This document shows positions 1 to 34,613 of a stretch of DNA of 36,417 nucleotides, one piece after another (position 1 is the stretch's first letter; each line of letters begins with the position of its first letter). The notes beneath the pieces are model-generated. The model was not told where the DNA came from and searched no databases. It worked only from the letters and a program-made list of their open reading frames with translations. The stretch lies in NCBI GenBank assembly GCA_030145195.1, contig JAQYVY010000036.1, positions 1 through 36,417 on the forward strand. Reading direction: 5' to 3'. Both the position numbers and the translations under genes were made by a program. The DNA comes from Desulfuromonadales bacterium. GTDB taxonomy: Bacteria > Desulfobacterota > Desulfuromonadia > Desulfuromonadales > BM103.

Positions 1-429
1 CGTGTCATCACCGACGACAACATGGTCTCCCAGGTAAACTCCGGGCAAGATGCGACTGTTTTTGCCAACGGTAACATTCGTCCCCAGAGAGGCTTTTGGG
101 AAAATCACGGCCGTGGAATCGATCTGTTGAGATTCTGCTTGCGGCAGATCGAAAACCGGGCGGAACAACCGAGAGGCTTGAGCCATGCTGAGCTCAGGGT
201 CCGCCACCACAATGGCAATCGCCGTGGCACTGACCATGTTCTTTAACTTCTCAGTGACCAGAACCGCCGCCGCTTCAGTTTGCTTGAGATCGCTCAAGTG
301 CTTGCTACTGATGGCGTAGGCGAGCTGCGAGCCGGTTGCGTCACTGAGGGTTGAAAGGCCTGTGATCTCAGGATCATTGTCGAGTCTCGAACTGATGGAC
401 AGTGTCTTTAGAATCGCGCTCAGTTTCAT
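1..429 (-). CDS. lpxD: UDP-3-O-acylglucosamine N-acyltransferase, N-terminal part (runs off the window)
   Basis: LpxD adds the second (N-linked) acyl chain to UDP-3-O-acylglucosamine in lipid A synthesis in the cytoplasm. The 143 residues seen start MKLSAILKTL and carry the family's N-terminal uridine-binding type domain, including a region around ITGLSTLSDA that matches the usual 'I.gv.sL..A' pattern. After about residue 105 the hexapeptide repeats of the left-handed beta-helix begin (TAVIFPKASLGTNVTVGKNS, then GVYLGDHVVVGDDT). The start at 429 is supported by an AAGGAAGAG ribosome site upstream. The catalytic His and the rest of the helix lie beyond base 1. In this group lpxD normally sits with other lipid A genes, which would be to the left. 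Identification rests on recognised sequence pattern; confidence is high for the family. Confidence 0.88.
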   Translation of the reverse strand, partial: MKLSAILKTLSISSRLDNDPEITGLSTLSDATGSQLAYAISSKHLSDLKQTEAAAVLVTEKLKNMVSATAIAIVVADPELSMAQASRLFRPVFDLPQAESQQIDSTAVIFPKASLGTNVTVGKNSRILPGVYLGDHVVVGDDT

Positions 430-6848: not shown

Positions 6849-7952
6849 TTACGATTTCTTCTCCGCCGCTTCTTTTTCCATCCGCTTCAGGGTTCGCTGC
6901 GGCACGTAGTTGCAGAACGGCTCTTCGGCCATGTAGTCGCCGTACACTGCATCGGCACGGGCGCGGCAGCCGCCGCAGACATTGATAAACTCACACTCTC
7001 CGCACTTGCCCTTGTACTTCTTGAAATCACGCAAGTCGTTAAAGGTTTTGCTGTTAAACCAGAGCTCCTTGAACGGAATCTGTTTAACGTTGCCGACCGA
7101 GGAGTGGAAATAGGAGCAAGGTTTGAGGTTGCCGAAGCAATCGATCAAACAGATGGTTTGAGCCGCGATGCAGCCTTTGCCACCGCCGGTGGAGAAGGTC
7201 AGACTGCGACGTTTAAAATCGACGCCCTCAGCCTTGGCCATCTGTGGTACGACCCGGTAGTAATGCGGCGCACAAGTCGGCCGCATCAGGATATCGTCTT
7301 CGCCCTTCTCCTGCGCATAGTGCCAGGAGAGGATCTCCTCGTAGTCTTCCTTGGAGATCAACTCGTTCATGATATCCTCGCCACGACCGGTTGGCACGAT
7401 CATGAACATGTACCAGGCGGTGGCACCGAGCTCTTTGGCAACCTTGAAGGTGGCACCAATGTCGTGCTGGTTGCGCTTGGTGAATGAAGAGTTGATCAGG
7501 AACTTGATGCCGTTGCGCTTAAGAGTTTCAGCGGCACGAACCACGCCTTCGAAAGCTCCGGGACAGGAGCGGAAGTCATCATGAATCTCGGCGGTCGAAC
7601 CATCCAGCGACAGGGAGACCATCTTGATGTCGGCGTCTATCATCTGCGCGCAGACTTCATCGGTGATCAAGGTGCCGTTGGTGGCCATGCACATACGCAG
7701 CCCCTTACTGGTGCCATACCGGGCGATCTCGAAGATGTCTTTGCGCAGCAGCGGTTCGCCACCGGAAAGCACCATCACCGGCTTGCTGACCTCGCAGATA
7801 TCGTCGATCAGCTTAAAAGCCTCTTCGGTATTAAAATCGCCAACTGCGGCGTCCATATCGGACGAACAGCGGCAATGCACACAGTTCAGATTACAGCGTT
7901 GGGTCGACTCCCAAGCGATCCACTTGGGAATAAATTCTTGCTCTGAAGCCAT
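6849..7952 (-). CDS. Radical SAM/SPASM protein of haem synthesis, AhbD-like
   Basis: A 367-residue radical SAM enzyme. The CX3CX2C cluster site is Cys20, Cys24, Cys27 (CNLNCVHC), followed by the SAM-binding GGEPL. The C-terminal SPASM region has the cysteines expected for extra Fe-S clusters: [19 protein letters not shown], then [17 protein letters not shown] and a final EEPFC. This block is typical of the AhbC/AhbD/NirJ group. AhbD decarboxylates Fe-coproporphyrin III to haem b without oxygen, AhbC removes acetate groups from didecarboxysirohaem, and NirJ acts in haem d1 synthesis. The place immediately upstream of hemE and hemH favours a haem b role, and I prefer AhbD-like. AAGGAG precedes the ATG. 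Family certain; exact reaction inferred. Confidence 0.75.
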
Positions 7953-8182
7953 ACAGACAACTCCTTGAAAAGCTCAGTAGAAGATAATCAAGGCTCGGAG
8001 TGAATCCGAACCCTGAAAGGTCAGTTTACAACAGAGCGCGTGAGTCTGACAAGGGGATACAACAACTCGAATCTTTCCTTTTAAGGAATGATTTCCCTAG
8101 CGGTCTACGCGGCTCCGCACTTAACAAGCATTTTTTGGCTATAGCCTCATTATATTGAAGCCTTTCAAAAAACCGCAAACCC
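7953..8182. other. Intergenic region upstream of the radical SAM gene
   Basis: About 230 bases, probably with the promoter of the haem block on the minus strand. A perfect palindrome GGCTATAGCC lies at 8137-8146, and an imperfect TTTCCTTTTAAGGAA lies near 8086-8100. No regulator site was identified with confidence. Confidence 0.35.
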
Positions 8183-8206
8183 AAAAAGGCGGCCAAACGG
8201 CCGCCC
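8183..8206 (-). terminator. Rho-independent terminator of the flavin oxidoreductase gene
   Basis: The perfect stem GGCGGCC/GGCCGCC (8188-8194 with 8199-8205), four-base loop, is followed on the minus strand by five T residues. It lies 26 bases past the stop codon at 8232. Confidence 0.85.
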
Positions 8207-8231
8207 CTGGATATTATTATCGGTTTATCGC

Positions 8232-9293
8232 TTACGACTTTTGCTCACTGCCGAAAAGCTCATCAAAAATGTCTTGAACCGTTTCGATCTTTTCGGCTTT
8301 CCAGGCGTTGGTGCCGCAAAAGATCAGGCCAGTATCGACGTCGCCACGCTGAGCACGATCCAGAGCCTGGACGATACAGAACCGCTCCTGCGCTGACTTG
8401 TAGGCGCATTTTTTCAAGCAACCGGTTGGGCAGGTCGGAGTCATAACGAGATCGCGCTCCCGAATCGCTTCGACATTGGAAATCAGGGCTCGCCCCGGCA
8501 ATCCGGCCGGGCTCATCAGCAAACCGATATCCTCTTTCGCGCAATCGAGATACGCCTGTTTGAACGCATCATCAGCATCACATTCTTCAGTGCAGACGAA
8601 ACGGGTGCCCATCTGAACGCCGTCGGCGCCTTGCGCAAGGGCATCATCAAAATCGGCACGGTCCCAGACTCCGCCTGCAGCAATAATCGGGATGTCGAGT
8701 TGCCAGGTCTCAAGAAAATAGGCTTTGACTCCACGCACGGTGGCATATTGGTCATATTCCCCGGTGCCGATCCGCTCGAGCTTTTCGCCCAGATGACCAC
8801 CGGCTGTACCGGGGTCTTCCACCACCACAGCATCCGGCAGACGATCATAAGACTTCTTCCATTTGCGCGCGATCAACTCTGCAGCCTTGACCGAAGAAAC
8901 AATCGGCACCAGTGCAACATCTGGCCAGTCGGCAGTCAACCCCGGAAGACTAAGGGGTAACCCCGCGCCGGAAACAATCAGCTTCGCGCCGCCTTCACAA
9001 GACGCCTTAACCAGTTCAGCAAAGTCGGTCACGGCCACCATGCAGTTGGTACCGATCACACCGTCGGGGGCGATTTCATAAGCCTTGGCAAGCTCATCCT
9101 TAAGCGCCAAAGACTCGGAAGCGAAGTAATTGTCGCCTTTATAATGAGGGCTGTTCAGGCCGATTCCAGCGGTCGCGATCAGGCCGACCCCACCGCAACG
9201 GGCAACAGTGCCCGCCAGGCGACACGCCGAGATACGAACACCCATACCACCCTGAATCAAGGGATAAGCAACCTCATGTTTACCAATACGCAT
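8232..9293 (-). CDS. Nitronate monooxygenase-family flavin oxidoreductase
   Basis: A 353-residue FMN-binding TIM-barrel protein of the 2-nitropropane dioxygenase/NMO and FabK superfamily. It starts with the flavin-binding PLIQGGMGVRISACRLA, contains VVVEDPGTAGGHLG with the His expected at the active site, and a phosphate-binding IIAAGGVWDRADFDDALAQG followed by GADGVQMGTRFV. The C-terminus is unusual: CPTGCLKKC and two further cysteines (RFCIV, IFCG) within about 45 residues. In anaerobes such proteins may not act on nitronates; an NAD(P)H-linked reductase role is equally possible. AGAGAGGT precedes the start. It appears monocistronic. Confidence 0.8.
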   Translation of the reverse strand: MRIGKHEVAYPLIQGGMGVRISACRLAGTVARCGGVGLIATAGIGLNSPHYKGDNYFASESLALKDELAKAYEIAPDGVIGTNCMVAVTDFAELVKASCEGGAKLIVSGAGLPLSLPGLTADWPDVALVPIVSSVKAAELIARKWKKSYDRLPDAVVVEDPGTAGGHLGEKLERIGTGEYDQYATVRGVKAYFLETWQLDIPIIAAGGVWDRADFDDALAQGADGVQMGTRFVCTEECDADDAFKQAYLDCAKEDIGLLMSPAGLPGRALISNVEAIRERDLVMTPTCPTGCLKKCAYKSAQERFCIVQALDRAQRGDVDTGLIFCGTNAWKAEKIETVQDIFDELFGSEQKS

Positions 9294-9507
9294 AAAACCT
9301 CTCTTTTGGAGTCCTGTCAGATCGCTTTAGGAGAGTGCCCTTTACACCGACACTCTAAATCTATAGCTCCTTAATCTAACAAAATCAGGATGATAGGATT
9401 GTAATAGTTCTGTAAAACACCTCCCCGGACCTGAATAACCGCAAGAAGCCCCGCTTACCCTCACGCCTCACTCCTCACCTCTTACCCCTTGCCGCTCAAA
9501 GACGGTA

Positions 9508-10488
9508 ATGGTAAAAAGAATGACTATGAAATGGCTGAAACGCATCTTCAATCCGCTGATGGCTTTCATCGGCATCCAGGTCGCCTGGGTTCTGGCGGTT
9601 ATCGTCTGGCTTAACTGGTTTCTGGGCAACCATCGCAAGCTCAGGGTTTTGGCTGAAAAATACAGCCCCGAGTTGTTAGTCGGTGGCCCGGACTGGCTGA
9701 TCCTGACCGAGGGCCTGCTGCTGCTAATCTCCATCCTGGTCGGCGTCTACGTCATCTTCCTCTACTGGACGCGCCAGTCGGCACTGGTCCGGGAACAACG
9801 CCAGTTCATCTCCCAGGTCACCCACGAGCTCAAATCGCCCCTGGCTTCGATACAATTGCATCTGGAGACAATCCGTCGCCACGAGCTCCCTCCCGAACGC
9901 ATGGCTCCCTTTCTCGAAACCATGCTCGGTGACACCAACCGCCTCAACGGACTGATCGACAATCTGCTCTCAGCCAACCGGGTCGGTCAAAAGCACTGGA
10001 AACTCAACCTGCAACCAACTGACTTCAGCGCCTTTGTCGAACAATACTTTCGTGCGCGGCAATTCACCCTGCCCCGGGCTGGCAAGATCACGCTGGACAT
10101 TGCTCCCGGGGTAAACGTCGCGATCGACCGCGATGCCATAGAAACGATCCTGCGCAACCTGTTAGAGAATGCAGTACTCTATTCCGATGATCCACCCGAC
10201 ATTACCGTCACCCTGAAGGCAGATTCTCGGAACTGCCATCTGGCGTTCGCCGACCACGGCCGCGGGATCGAAACCAAAGATCAAAAGAAAATCTTCAACA
10301 TGTTCTATCGGATTCGCCGCAAGAGTGAGAACATTCGCGGCTCAGGGCTGGGCCTGTTCATCGTCAACGCCAACATCCGCCGCCACTACGGGCAGGTCAG
10401 GGTCGAAAGCCCGGGCAAGGACCAGGGCACGACCTTCCACATCACCCTGCCCCTCTGTCAGGCTGGAGTTCTGGAGGACAAGACATGA
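9508..10488 (+). CDS. Two-component sensor histidine kinase
   Basis: A 326-residue membrane kinase. Two hydrophobic segments (about residues 15-35 and 68-90) flank a short periplasmic loop of roughly 30 residues, so there is little external sensing domain. The dimerisation/phosphoacceptor helix carries His106 in FISQVTHELKSPLAS. The N-box is NLLENAVLYSD, followed by DHGRGIE and GSGLGLFIV for ATP binding. The stop overlaps the regulator start by four bases. The ATG at 9508 and the one at 9520 are both possible; neither has a strong ribosome site. The signal is unknown. Confidence 0.9.
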   Translation: MVKRMTMKWLKRIFNPLMAFIGIQVAWVLAVIVWLNWFLGNHRKLRVLAEKYSPELLVGGPDWLILTEGLLLLISILVGVYVIFLYWTRQSALVREQRQFISQVTHELKSPLASIQLHLETIRRHELPPERMAPFLETMLGDTNRLNGLIDNLLSANRVGQKHWKLNLQPTDFSAFVEQYFRARQFTLPRAGKITLDIAPGVNVAIDRDAIETILRNLLENAVLYSDDPPDITVTLKADSRNCHLAFADHGRGIETKDQKKIFNMFYRIRRKSENIRGSGLGLFIVNANIRRHYGQVRVESPGKDQGTTFHITLPLCQAGVLEDKT

Positions 10489-11192
10489 GACCTCCCCACA
10501 TCCTACTGGTGGAAGATGAAGTCCATATTGCCCAGGGGCTGGTCTTCAACCTGGAGCTGGAAAATTATCGCGTAACCCATGTCGACACCGGTGCCGCGGC
10601 CATGCAAGCCTTTGCCGCAACCGCTTTCGACCTGGTGATCCTCGACCTGATGCTGCCAGACAGCCACGGCCTCGACCTCTGTCGTCAAATGCGCAAGCAG
10701 GCTCCGCAATTACCAATCCTCATTCTCACCGCGCTTGGCGAAGAGAAAGATCGCGTCAAGGGGCTGCAAGAGGGGGCCGACGATTACCTGAACAAACCGT
10801 TCAACCTCGACGAGTTCCTGCTGCGGGTACGCGGTATGCTGCGCCGCTCCAAGTGGTATCGCCCGGAAGCCGATCTGAGCGAACCGTATCTGTTCGGCAA
10901 CAACCGGGTCGACCTCGACAACCTCAAAGCCAAAACCCGCCAGGGCGAAATTACCCTGACCGAACTGGAAGCCCGCATGCTCGCCACCTTCTTTGCCACC
11001 GAAGGACAAACCCTGCGCCGCGGCGACCTGCTGGAACAGGTCTGGGGCCTCAGCAGCGACACCGAAACCCGCAGTCTCGACAACTTTATCGTGCGCCTGC
11101 GCAAGTATTTTGAAGAAGACCCTTCCCAACCGCAGCATTTTTTGACCGTGCGCGGGCGGGGGTATCGGTTTGTGCAAAAGCCGGGGGCATAA
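10485..11192 (+). CDS. OmpR/PhoB-type response regulator
   Basis: A 235-residue transcription regulator. The receiver domain (1-120) has the acidic pair Glu10/Asp11, phosphoacceptor Asp54 in VILDLMLPD and the conserved Lys104 in NKPF. The winged-helix DNA-binding domain covers about 135-232 and ends with VRGRGYRFV. It is coupled by an ATGA overlap to the kinase before it, its obvious partner. Target genes cannot be read; the quinone oxidoreductase downstream is separated by 300 bases and has its own ribosome site. Confidence 0.93.
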   Translation: MRPPHILLVEDEVHIAQGLVFNLELENYRVTHVDTGAAAMQAFAATAFDLVILDLMLPDSHGLDLCRQMRKQAPQLPILILTALGEEKDRVKGLQEGADDYLNKPFNLDEFLLRVRGMLRRSKWYRPEADLSEPYLFGNNRVDLDNLKAKTRQGEITLTELEARMLATFFATEGQTLRRGDLLEQVWGLSSDTETRSLDNFIVRLRKYFEEDPSQPQHFLTVRGRGYRFVQKPGA

Positions 11193-30901: not shown

Positions 30902-32473
30902 ATGCAAAACGCAAACGAACTTCACAATCTGATTGCCACAGCCCTGACTGGCCTGGTCAAACAAATCAAAGCGATCAGATACTACCCGGCGAAGCACCCG
31001 GCGCTGCAGGCTGGGGCGGAAGAAACGTTGCGTGGGTTCCAACCGATCTTCACCAACACCAGCAATCTGAGTTTGACCATTCGCAAAGAGGGTTTTCTCT
31101 TTGGTGATCTTCCCGTTGCAAAATCGAACCAGGTTCTTGTTCAGTTGGCCAACTTCTGCTTTGCCCGACGTATCCAGCATTTAACCTTTCTCTCGGAACT
31201 TAACAGTGGGGATCTGCACTGTTTCGTTCACTACCTTCTGCTCGAGCCCCAGGACATTTTAAAAGCGGGGGGAATCCAGTCGATCCTGGAAAAAGCGCGC
31301 GTGACTACAATCTGGGCCAACATCCGCGAGCTTGACGACATTCTGGAACGCAAGGAAGAGCTGGAAGAGTTACCACCCGAACCGGATTTTGATCCCGAGT
31401 CCGTCCTCTCCGAGGCCGACGACGCTGCTGGAGAACAGGAGCAAGCCGAAGCCCAGAACCTGGAAAAGCTACTCCAACAAATGGAACAGGAGCAGGATGA
31501 CGCCAGGTATCAGCATGGTCTTCAAGAGCTGATCCCTTTGCTACGACTGCAAATGGATGAGGAAAAACGCGTATTGGTCTTGCGCGCACTCTTACTCCTC
31601 TGCCGCTGCGCTACCGGCAAACAGTACTCCGAGGAGCGCAAGGGCCAGTCCATGCAGGCCCTCAACCAACTGGCAAACGATGAAATGGTAAATTTCCTGG
31701 TCGCCTACCTGTGTGCCGAGGGAACTGACCAGAATACCAGCAAGACCCTGATACAGATTCTCGCCTTTCTACGCGGCAAAGTGGCTAAGCGGCTGATGAA
31801 CATGCTCGCCGATGAAGAAGCCGCGCCCAAGCGCAAATTGCTCAGCGACATTCTGGTTCGCATCGGCATCGCTGCCCTGCCGGTTTTACAGGAATATCTT
31901 GACGATGACCGCTGGTTCGTGGTCCGCAACGCGATTGGCATCATGGGCGACATACGTAGTCAGGAGTCGCTGGCACACCTGCCACCACTGTTGCAGCACG
32001 ATGATATTCGGGTTCGCCGGGAAACAATTCGCGCCCTCACCAAGATCGGCGGTCAACGGGCCATTAACCTCTTGCTACAAACATCGATGGCAAGCGATCA
32101 GGAACTGCGACGACAGGCTATTCTGTCGTTAGGTGCCATCCGTGCCGCTGGTGCCGTTCCGACTTTGCTGTCGCTACTCCAGAGATCGGACTGGAGCCAA
32201 AGGTCGATTGATCTCAAAAAAGATGCGATTCGCGCCCTGAGTGAGATTCGTGACACCGAAGCCGTTCCAACATTGGTAAATATCATCAAGAAAAAAAGCT
32301 TTCTACACCGCAAGCTCAATGATGAACTCCGCATTGCAGCAACAGCGGCCCTGGGTGATCTCGCCGATGAAAGCACCCGCGATATCCTCGAAAAAACCAC
32401 CTGTGACCGCACCGCAGCTGTCGCCAGAACAGCGGCCCAGGCTCTTAAACAGCTCAACAAGGCAAATACATGA
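30902..32473 (+). CDS. HEAT-repeat protein with a KAIRxYPxxHP N-terminal domain
   Basis: About 523 residues. The N-terminal 140 residues start MQNANELHNLIATALTGL and contain QIKAIRYYPAKHP (21-33); the neighbouring HD-GYP protein has a similar block, so the two seem to share a domain I cannot name. A highly acidic, probably coiled-coil linker follows (Glu/Asp-rich around residues 150-205). The C-terminal half consists of HEAT-like repeats (for example RWFVVRNAIGIMGDI, DIRVRRETIRALTKIGG and DELRIAATAALGDLADE). No enzyme motif was seen. Reading from a GTG at 30677 would add 75 low-complexity residues; ATG 30902 is preferred because the shared domain begins there, though its ribosome site is weak. 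The stop overlaps the HD-GYP start (ATGA). Confidence 0.78.
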   Translation: MQNANELHNLIATALTGLVKQIKAIRYYPAKHPALQAGAEETLRGFQPIFTNTSNLSLTIRKEGFLFGDLPVAKSNQVLVQLANFCFARRIQHLTFLSELNSGDLHCFVHYLLLEPQDILKAGGIQSILEKARVTTIWANIRELDDILERKEELEELPPEPDFDPESVLSEADDAAGEQEQAEAQNLEKLLQQMEQEQDDARYQHGLQELIPLLRLQMDEEKRVLVLRALLLLCRCATGKQYSEERKGQSMQALNQLANDEMVNFLVAYLCAEGTDQNTSKTLIQILAFLRGKVAKRLMNMLADEEAAPKRKLLSDILVRIGIAALPVLQEYLDDDRWFVVRNAIGIMGDIRSQESLAHLPPLLQHDDIRVRRETIRALTKIGGQRAINLLLQTSMASDQELRRQAILSLGAIRAAGAVPTLLSLLQRSDWSQRSIDLKKDAIRALSEIRDTEAVPTLVNIIKKKSFLHRKLNDELRIAATAALGDLADESTRDILEKTTCDRTAAVARTAAQALKQLNKANT

Positions 32474-33798
32474 ACATCGATGAAATCAAACAGGTCGTAC
32501 AGGTTCTGGCTGCCGCAATCAAGGGCCTGCGCCTCTATGCTGTTGATCATCCAGCGACAGCCAAGCAGGTTGAAGCCTTGCAAAACGGCTTATTTGGCCT
32601 ATTACAATACAAAAAACAGATCAAGATGGGCCTGCTGGAAGGCACCCTCTTCGTTGAAGACCATCTCTTTATGCAGGAGTTTCCCGCAGCAGAAGAAATC
32701 GCCAAGTTGCTGGAGTCCCGCGAGCTCGTCGGCTTCGAATTTATGGCTGGGCTCTCGGCCACCGAAATCCAATCCCTACTGCGACTGCTGCACTCAGGCA
32801 GCGAAAAGGGGCAGGATTTTGCTGATGCACTGGCCTCCCAGGGAGTCAAAAAGATTCGAGCCGTCGCAGCCGATGACGATGACGATGATAAAGAACCTCG
32901 CAAGGTTTACCGCAAGGCACTGAAAGTTGTCGACCAGATCTTCCAGGATGTCCGCATGGGCGAAATCCCCTCATCGGAAGAGGCGATCAATGTCGTCAAG
33001 AGCATGGCCCAAATGACCATGACAGAGCCGCATGCCATGATGGCCCTATCGATGCTTAAGGATTACGACAACTACACCTTCACCCATTCGGTCAATGTTT
33101 CAGTCATCGCCTTGGCCGTTGGTCGAGCCTGCAAGCTCACCGAGGAGCAGTTGCGCACCATCGGGCTCGGCGCACTTCTCCATGACTTGGGAAAACTTCG
33201 CATCGATGTCAACATTATTACCAAACCGGGCCGTCTGACCGATTTAGAATTCGAAGAGATCAAGCGTCATCCCGACTACGGCGCGGAGATTATCCAAGAG
33301 ATGGAGGATGTCACGCCAGAAGTCATGGCCATTGTTCTCGGCCACCACCTGCGCTACGATCGTTCCGGATACCCAGTCAGTTCGTTAGATTCTGCGACAT
33401 CTCCACTGGTTGAGATGACCGCCATTGCCGACGCATACGATGCTATGACCACCTTGCGCTCTTATCAGCGGCCATTTACTCCGCGAAAGGCAATCGCCCG
33501 GCTCAAGGAGATCTCCGGGACATCGCTGCACCCGGAATACGTCATGACCTTCATCGATTCACTAGGGCCCTATCCGGTGGGCAGCCTAGTTCGCCTTGAC
33601 AACAACGAGATCGGCCTGGTTATCAAGGTCGACACCCAAGACCCGAGCCTGGCCGACATCAAGATCATCTTCAACCCTGCGGGGCAACTTATCGAAGAGC
33701 CCTTCATGCTCAACCTGCGCCCCAATCAACTGCGTCGTATTGTCGCGGAAGTCGACCCACAAACCAAGGGCATTGATGTCACTGATTTTTTTGATTAA
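32470..33798 (+). CDS. HD-GYP domain protein, probable c-di-GMP phosphodiesterase
   Basis: A 442-residue cytosolic protein. The N-terminal 130 residues resemble those of the preceding HEAT protein (AIKGLRLYAVDHP, 16-28, then EGTLFVEDHLF). An Asp-rich stretch (DDDDDDKE) precedes the HD-GYP domain, which has LLHDLGK (His238/Asp239 by count), KRHPDYGAEI, GHHLRYDRSGYP and AIADAYDAMTT. The GYP motif is intact; the usual HHExxDGSGYP is altered to HHLRYDRSGYP. After about residue 365 comes a small beta-rich tail (GSLVRLDNNEIGLVIKV). The family hydrolyses c-di-GMP to GMP or pGpG. The ATGA overlap argues for joint action with the HEAT protein. Confidence 0.9.
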   Translation: MNIDEIKQVVQVLAAAIKGLRLYAVDHPATAKQVEALQNGLFGLLQYKKQIKMGLLEGTLFVEDHLFMQEFPAAEEIAKLLESRELVGFEFMAGLSATEIQSLLRLLHSGSEKGQDFADALASQGVKKIRAVAADDDDDDKEPRKVYRKALKVVDQIFQDVRMGEIPSSEEAINVVKSMAQMTMTEPHAMMALSMLKDYDNYTFTHSVNVSVIALAVGRACKLTEEQLRTIGLGALLHDLGKLRIDVNIITKPGRLTDLEFEEIKRHPDYGAEIIQEMEDVTPEVMAIVLGHHLRYDRSGYPVSSLDSATSPLVEMTAIADAYDAMTTLRSYQRPFTPRKAIARLKEISGTSLHPEYVMTFIDSLGPYPVGSLVRLDNNEIGLVIKVDTQDPSLADIKIIFNPAGQLIEEPFMLNLRPNQLRRIVAEVDPQTKGIDVTDFFD

Positions 33799-33870
33799 AT
33801 TGTCCGGCATGGAGATGTGGAGCATTGCTCCCACACTCTGATTAAACCGACCATCGACAAACAAACAGCA

Positions 33871-33904
33871 AAAGGCCAGGAGAAAATTCTCCTGGCCTTT
33901 TTGT
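33871..33904. terminator. Strong bidirectional terminator
   Basis: A perfect 14-base inverted repeat (33871-33884 with 33887-33900) flanked by A-run and T-run sequence. It lies between the convergent HD-GYP and small HEAT genes and can serve both. Confidence 0.92.
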
Positions 33905-33944: not shown

Positions 33945-34520
33945 TTATTCTTTCAATGGAATTTCGCTGAGGGCCACCACCGCTGCAATCCGGACCGAAG
34001 CCCGACTGTCTTTTGTCAAATTTGACAGAGCCGCAACGCTGTCGGGAGAACCGATAGCACCTAAAGAACGGGCGGCACTGATAACCAGTTGTTCATCGTC
34101 ATCCCCAAGCAAGGAGACCATGTAGGGGGCCACCCGGACATCGGCAAAGTGGCCCAAGGCTTCGGCAGTATAAACTCGCACTGCAGGAGAAGGATCCTTG
34201 AGGTGCTTCACCAGACTGTTGAGCGATTTTGGATGGGCCTTGCTACCCAAAACCTGAATAGCCGCCCCCCGGATATCTGCATCAGGATCCTTAAGCAGAT
34301 TAATAAGATGCGGGAAGACTTCCGCCGAGCGGACATTTTCCATGGCAAAAATCGCCTTGACCCGCTGCCCCCGCTTCTCAGACTTGAGCTCCTGGATAAT
34401 CTGGGCCAGGCCCTGAAAAGACTCAAGCCGCTCCAAAGCTGTGGCCGCAGCAGTGCGAACATCTTCTTCCGCATCAGACAGCAGCCCAACAAGCAGATTT
34501 CTTCTTTGCTCCAGAGACAT
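33945..34520 (-). CDS. Small HEAT-repeat protein
   Basis: A 191-residue protein made almost entirely of HEAT-like repeats of about 31 residues (for example AEEDVRTAAATALERLES, DPDADIRGAAIQVLGSKA, DPSPAVRVYTAEALGHFA, DEQLVISAARSLGAIG, SRASVRIAAVVALSEI). No catalytic motif or signal peptide. ATG 34520 is chosen because GGGGAG precedes it at good distance; an upstream ATG at 34538 lacks this. It faces the HEAT/HD-GYP pair across a shared terminator. A scaffold or binding partner of that pair is possible; function unknown. Confidence 0.85.
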   Translation of the reverse strand: MSLEQRRNLLVGLLSDAEEDVRTAAATALERLESFQGLAQIIQELKSEKRGQRVKAIFAMENVRSAEVFPHLINLLKDPDADIRGAAIQVLGSKAHPKSLNSLVKHLKDPSPAVRVYTAEALGHFADVRVAPYMVSLLGDDDEQLVISAARSLGAIGSPDSVAALSNLTKDSRASVRIAAVVALSEIPLKE

Positions 34521-34613
34521 AAAGCTCCCCATCTTCAATTAAATAAATCGATTAAAGCTACCAGAAACTAGTCTACCGTGCAAACCTGAAAAAGGCTATA
34601 GATCGAAGATAAA

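Follow-up and report, generated by a model that had tools for sequence, protein, structure and literature searches.

Why should a HEAT-repeat protein and an HD-GYP phosphodiesterase, encoded side by side, begin with the same domain? This question is raised by positions 30902–33798 of a 36,417-nucleotide (nt) stretch of Desulfuromonadales bacterium DNA (contig JAQYVY010000036.1), the whole of which is called the window here. An earlier reading of the letters alone (the original prediction) had proposed that two overlapping genes encode proteins sharing a novel N-terminal domain (N-domain). Comparison of family profiles demonstrates that the first ~135–147 residues of the two proteins are homologous. 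The gene pair is conserved across many related families, suggesting a signalling unit not described before. The features of the pair are as follows.

30902..32473, + strand: gene for the HEAT-repeat protein; 523 residues, ATG start, TGA stop within the ATGA overlap, HEAT_2 match of 93.9 bits
30902..31342, + strand: N-domain of the HEAT protein, residues 1–147; hhalign against the HD-GYP N-domain 98.35%, E 1e-14
31343..31489, + strand: acidic linker and long helix of the HEAT protein, residues 148–196; from sequence and model, partly at low confidence
31490..32470, + strand: predicted helical-repeat solenoid of the HEAT protein, residues 197–523; model helices and HEAT_2, HEAT_PBS and Arm matches
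32470..32473, + strand: ATGA start/stop overlap of both genes, 4 nt
32470..33798, + strand: gene for the HD-GYP protein, 442 residues
32470..32874, + strand: N-domain of the HD-GYP protein, residues 1–135; from profile comparison and model
32875..33048, + strand: predicted linker helices ahead of the HD-GYP domain, residues 136–193; from the model
33049..33564, + strand: HD-GYP domain, residues 194–365, from invariant columns and PDB matches; key residues D200, H206, H238-D239, K242, H267, H292-H293, G300-Y301-P302, D321 and D324
33565..33795, + strand: predicted C-terminal beta-rich domain of the HD-GYP protein, residues 366–442; from DSSP of the model

One domain at the start of two proteins

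Coordinates, frames and the ATGA overlap at 32470–32473 agree with the original prediction and, judged by their overlapping stop and start codons, the genes would count as translationally coupled. A longer HEAT frame starting at GTG 30677 was rejected, as orthologues mostly begin near 30902 by eye. The predicted motif I-K-[AG]-[IL]-R-x-Y-x-x-x-H-P is present in both proteins, the HEAT protein having QIKAIRYYPAKHPA and the HD-GYP protein AIKGLRLYAVDHPA; both N-termini also carry the EG.LF pattern. Compared as single sequences the N-termini gave a marginal signal (BLASTP, 20% identity, E 5e-4 for one comparison). Homology is concluded because the family profiles match decisively: alignment of the HEAT-protein N-domains (HEAT-N, 46 rows) with the HD-GYP-protein N-domains (HD-N, 50 rows) by hhalign, a comparison set beforehand, gave a probability of 98.35% and E 1e-14 over 107 columns. 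The corresponding profiles from a diverged second type of pair (defined below) matched at 98.54%, and the remaining four comparisons among these four N-domain sets gave 97.7–99.7%. Reversing the profiles gave no more than 3.1%, and the highest value from 60 column shuffles of each pair was 10.2%, which excludes chance resemblance. To the HEAT, HD or C-terminal parts of these proteins the N-domain had a profile similarity of no more than 2%, which excludes the domain being a part of the HEAT or HD regions. Profiles built solely from phylum-survey loci outside the order (58 HEAT-N and 40 HD-N stretches) matched over 143 columns at 99.86%, with E 3.3e-31; the reversed control gave 0.8% and the best of 40 shuffles 3.1%.

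AlphaFold2 predicts one order of elements for both N-domains: two helices, a beta hairpin, a helix, a strand, two or three helices, and a strand. The HEAT-protein N-domain carries an additional short strand at the hairpin in its model. The two full-length models have mean predicted local distance difference test (pLDDT) scores of 87.9 and 91.2. Within the HEAT protein, pLDDT is 78 in the first ten-residue block of the N-domain and 86–96 thereafter, and falls to 47–74 in the linker blocks of residues 161–190. The Y-x3-H motif occurs in 208 of 254 N-domain stretches, and a single column is invariant over 58 diverse N-domains.

The N-domain is an unnamed alpha/beta domain in Pfam and NCBIfam, as the claim of novelty implied. 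No model of either library names it among the 58 N-domains at E ≤0.01, the stray matches being one to DUF3783 at 0.003 and one to an SDR model at 0.0096. DUF3391 (PF11871) was considered and rejected: it scored 12.7 bits (cut-off 27.8) on residues 139–170, behind the N-domain, had no match in the 58 N-domains scanned, and showed a profile similarity of at most 0.82% to the N-domain in the one DUF3391 domain compared (L216). DUF3391-HD-GYP proteins likewise place a domain of similar length and unassigned function ahead of HD-GYP. The folds differ, DUF3391 having four to five antiparallel strands and one to two helices according to PMC12943098 (section 3.7), whereas the N-domain is helix-rich. 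A plasmid search returned 530 records with HD-GYP-type matches, the first among the matches listed carrying DUF3391, and a scan of genome contigs gave a single match, a distant HD.

Searching PDB sequences with the N-domain profile gave a best E of 0.00094, to a designed protein. Foldseek and VIA-align were run on the full models, where HD and HEAT chains filled the matches, so that the N-domain fold was barely probed. The closest solved structure to the HD-GYP model was Bd1817 of Bdellovibrio (3tm8, 3tmb, 3tmd), with Z 25.1 and root-mean-square deviation 2.9 over 225 residues, model 57..366 on chain 8..306. This alignment spans the HD-GYP domain and starts in the second half of the N-domain; other Bd1817 entries start at 52–57, and the PmGH and DvhD matches at residues 130–144. 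As the Bd1817 match is known by its first and last residues, its range does not give the coverage of the N-domain. It begins past the first two N-domain helices, which carry the Y-x3-HP stretch. Bd1817 may bear a shortened relative of the N-domain, to go by this model comparison. Unlike the window's HD-GYP protein it is without the GYP tyrosine, and it is described as without phosphodiesterase activity on cyclic di-guanosine monophosphate (c-di-GMP) in PMC4159591.

Conservation and descent of the pair

The HD-GYP protein was searched against 58 genomes: that of the window, 21 from its family and 36 from its order. Every genome gave a match, 52 of them with E below 1e-90, and 51 of these 52 loci (window included) were taken as window-type, that is, like the pair at 30902–33798. 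An N-domain HEAT gene directly followed by an N-domain HD-GYP gene was found in 47 of the 51; among the other four, the HEAT gene is shortened at a contig end (L052, L079) or split (L076), or the HD-GYP gene is cut (L064). The window's genome holds four N-domain matches at E ≤1e-6, forming two pairs. The second, diverged pair lies on another contig (L015) and, together with similar loci, defines the second type, with the same gene order in 18 of 21 loci. Across the phylum, the N-domain was detected at E ≤1e-6 in 79 of 198 genomes. Sixty stretches were chosen from the matches listed, some sharing a genome, and 39 contained the pair by a strict rule. Pair order was also kept at L160, L199 and L201, with the HEAT gene split or the HD-GYP protein without a detected N-domain. 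The pair is thus maintained far beyond the genome in which it was predicted.

The 4-nt overlap occurs in 16 of the 47 window-type pairs. Overlap at the first possible start was counted in 43/47 window-type, 15/18 second-type and 23/39 phylum pairs, which are upper bounds because start codons were picked mechanically.

On a tree of 102 N-domains, the HEAT and HD labels require two changes, compared to a mean of 34 in shuffles, and none of 500 shuffles was as low. Both label groups contain both pair types. The HEAT-N and HD-N lineages are therefore largely separate, and because of this the widespread pair appears to be old and to have been duplicated whole. Read most simply, a single ancient duplication gave rise to HEAT-N and HD-N, and the entire pair was duplicated afterwards. 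In the 47 window-type pairs, HEAT-N and HD-N distances show a partial correlation, controlled for the other domains, of 0.55 (bootstrap 5–95%, 0.43–0.63), and HD-N and its own catalytic HD domain one of 0.03. The HEAT-N/HD-N value was 0.43 (n=31) once a small HEAT gene downstream and a neighbouring gene cluster, which we take to be that of coaE, were added.

Enzyme, scaffold and their possible connection

The second protein is assigned to the HD-GYP phosphodiesterase type, as predicted, with HD_5 at 72.0 bits (cut-off 27.2), HD at 55.9 bits (cut-off 22) and its active-site residues intact. Metal-ligand positions and residue roles were taken from PmGH as given in PMC4159591. H206, H238, D239, H267, H292, H293 and D321 are identical in all 119 N-domain HD-GYP open reading frames (ORFs), the window's included, so that all seven metal ligands common to both HD-GYP groups are kept. 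K242 and G300-Y301-P302 are also identical in 119/119, and the equivalents of PmGH D183 and D308 are aspartate in 115/119 and 118/119. The enzyme is very likely active, to judge from these residues. The position of PmGH E185 is tyrosine in 118/119, not the carboxylate of the E/D-T-G trinuclear group, and because of this tyrosine the family fits the Y/F group, predicted to be binuclear (the expectation for that group in PMC4159591). PmGH (4mcw) is otherwise alike in HD-GYP fold, seven of eight metal ligands, the D183, K225 and D308 equivalents and the GYP triplet. It differs in E185; the N-domain and the partner HEAT gene belong to the window's family.

HEAT repeats behind the N-terminus of the first protein, also predicted, are borne out by its HEAT_2 score of 93.9 bits against a curated cut-off of 27.7. 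Foldseek matched the solenoid to alphaRep, importin-alpha and beta-catenin. HEAT and alphaRep solenoid scaffolds are alike in repeat family and predicted solenoid; they differ in that the window's protein bears the N-domain and its gene is coupled to a phosphodiesterase gene.

The original prediction also called for a survey of the domain in front of other outputs, and such fusions were found. N-domain and HEAT repeats occur with GGDEF and AAA in one chain, by Pfam, at L171 (1140–4727), L183 (2050–6393), L202 (2539–6834) and L212 (570–4112). L183 has a second copy at 6896–11176, which was outside the Pfam scan, so the GGDEF/AAA call covers the others. The set with this copy comprises proteins of 1180–1447 residues, each with HEAT repeats and either one N-domain or two; the N-domains are in tandem at L183 and L202. 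Two further proteins (L213, 3514–8556; L214, 3420–6176) combine N-domain, HEAT, cNMP-binding and PilZ. These fusions tie the module to c-di-GMP.

We consider it somewhat probable that the pair forms a two-protein c-di-GMP phosphodiesterase unit, with the enzyme docked on the HEAT scaffold via paired N-domains. The N-domain sits on both the solenoid and the enzyme, and the two copies, on this reading ancient paralogues, most likely pair with each other. Such pairing could hold the phosphodiesterase on the scaffold and perhaps gate it, the HEAT protein serving as scaffold and the HD-GYP protein as output. The solenoid repeats would bind a further partner, one candidate being the small HEAT protein encoded convergently downstream, and c-di-GMP near that partner would be removed locally, given the presumed activity and substrate. 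Contact between N-domains gains indirect support from the largely separate descent of the two types and, in window-type pairs, from N-domain distances that follow each other more closely than those of the remaining parts of their own proteins. The original prediction had interpreted the pair as a heterodimer or as two sensors of one ligand, with HEAT as scaffold and HD-GYP as output. The shared domain, the coupling, the wide conservation, the intact HD-GYP site and the nameless domain stood; the contact and the roles are carried over as the proposal above. More tentatively, the new domain might pair specifically between the two proteins and so anchor a phosphodiesterase in a HEAT solenoid, with making (GGDEF-AAA), breaking and reading (cNMP-PilZ) of the messenger sharing one docking code.

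How single phosphodiesterases act locally despite diffusion of c-di-GMP is an open question. It would become testable in one operon with an enzyme and a scaffold that are conserved as a pair across families of a phylum, have a likely docking domain of their own, and whose domain is joined elsewhere to synthase and receptor domains. A likely function would also be assigned to a domain that many signalling proteins carry without annotation. Regulatory N-domains are already familiar from other HD-GYP enzymes. Among the literature matches listed, as titles and abstract starts with most subscription journals outside coverage, no paper pointed to a domain shared in this way or to a conserved pair of enzyme and scaffold.

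Several observations weigh against the docking proposal as a whole. In the phylum set, 12 of 60 loci have an N-domain HEAT gene without an HD-GYP neighbour (domain fusions among them), and six of 60 an N-domain ORF with neither HEAT nor HD detected. Eight loci (L096–L103) have an N-domain HD-GYP gene and no adjoining N-domain HEAT gene; all eight genomes also have a window-type pair, so that pairing in trans is conceivable, a homodimer being as likely. No single-frame HEAT/HD-GYP fusion was found among the ORFs scanned. The N-domain tree is built on 147 columns and its deep branches are weak (77 by the Shimodaira–Hasegawa-like approximate likelihood-ratio test). With midpoint rooting, nine rows labelled HEAT group on the HD side, and seven of these come from GGDEF-fused proteins. 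Among the 18 second-type pairs the HEAT-N/HD-N partial correlation is 0.28, whereas HEAT-N and the HD domain reach 0.66; for the complete set of 106 pairs the two values are about equal (0.39 and 0.44). The distance signal is therefore mixed, for N-N co-variation in window-type pairs and not in second-type pairs, and is taken as a hint only. A further such point, glutamine at the position of PmGH K317 in 68/119, concerns the substrate and is taken up below.

The unpaired enzymes would also be explained if the N-domain were a ligand sensor, each protein being homodimeric and both answering one signal in parallel without touching. Tandem N-domains in the GGDEF-AAA proteins of L183 and L202, as for a mobile sensor or oligomerisation module, the frequent Y-x3-H motif (208/254) and the N-domain proteins beside Ser/Thr kinase genes at L186 and L200 (described below) agree with this. 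We nevertheless judge it rather unlikely: one invariant column over 58 diverse members leaves little for a common ligand site, and two largely separate lineages on adjacent genes better fit complementary surfaces.

As to substrate, K317 contacts guanine in PmGH (PMC4159591) and, since most N-domain enzymes have glutamine there, theirs may differ from c-di-GMP. PmxA, another HD-GYP enzyme, showed peak in vitro activity on cyclic GMP-AMP (cGAMP) in PMC8844925. That the enzyme's substrate is instead 3',3'-cGAMP or some other cyclic dinucleotide is nonetheless improbable in our view, as substituting alanine for K317 caused no substantial drop in the activity of PmGH (PMC4159591). Lysine or arginine also occupies this position in 46/119, and relatives bear GGDEF and PilZ domains.

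Least probable is co-transcription for convenience, with the shared domain an old duplication and no present protein contact: overlapping genes are common in bacteria, but the gene order is constant over many families with differing flanks and in two duplicated lineages.

Neighbouring genes

Two features lie immediately downstream of the pair.

33870..33901, either strand: 15-nt perfect inverted repeat with A/T tracts, terminator-like both ways, between convergent units
33945..34538, − strand: convergent gene for a 197-residue protein of HEAT repeats, HEAT_2 105.8 bits

Terminator-like sites numbered 7 in the whole scan, compared to 5.3 ± 2.0 in shuffles. An Rfam scan of 10 sources gave nothing bearing on the pair, the sole match being rRNA in L099. 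The original prediction overlooked the convergent gene. A gene of this kind (~195 residues) is found in 43 of 47 window-type loci whose downstream sequence is 700 nt or longer, in 11/28 phylum loci, and in 0/19 second-type, 0/8 orphan and 0/2 other loci. It stays beside the HD-GYP gene while other flanking genes vary among families, and its distances track those of the HD domain (partial correlation 0.53, n=43).

Among the eight loci without an adjoining HEAT gene, the N-domain HD-GYP gene of L099 adjoins a histidine kinase and a sigma-54 response regulator. At L186 (2829–5057) and L200 (2904–5129), a gene for an N-domain protein of ~740 residues comes straight after one for a Ser/Thr protein kinase; the L186 protein matched nothing in Pfam at E ≤1e-5. 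Of 10 scanned genes that immediately precede a second-type or similar pair, 4 encode GGDEF proteins (L015, L111, L116, L118); the other six encode a PLD protein, a histidine kinase, an epimerase, two peptidases and one protein without a match. The GGDEF gene upstream of the second pair in the window's genome (L015, 5328–5834, − strand) is cut by the contig end, and its motif, NGLFL by eye, is probably degenerate.

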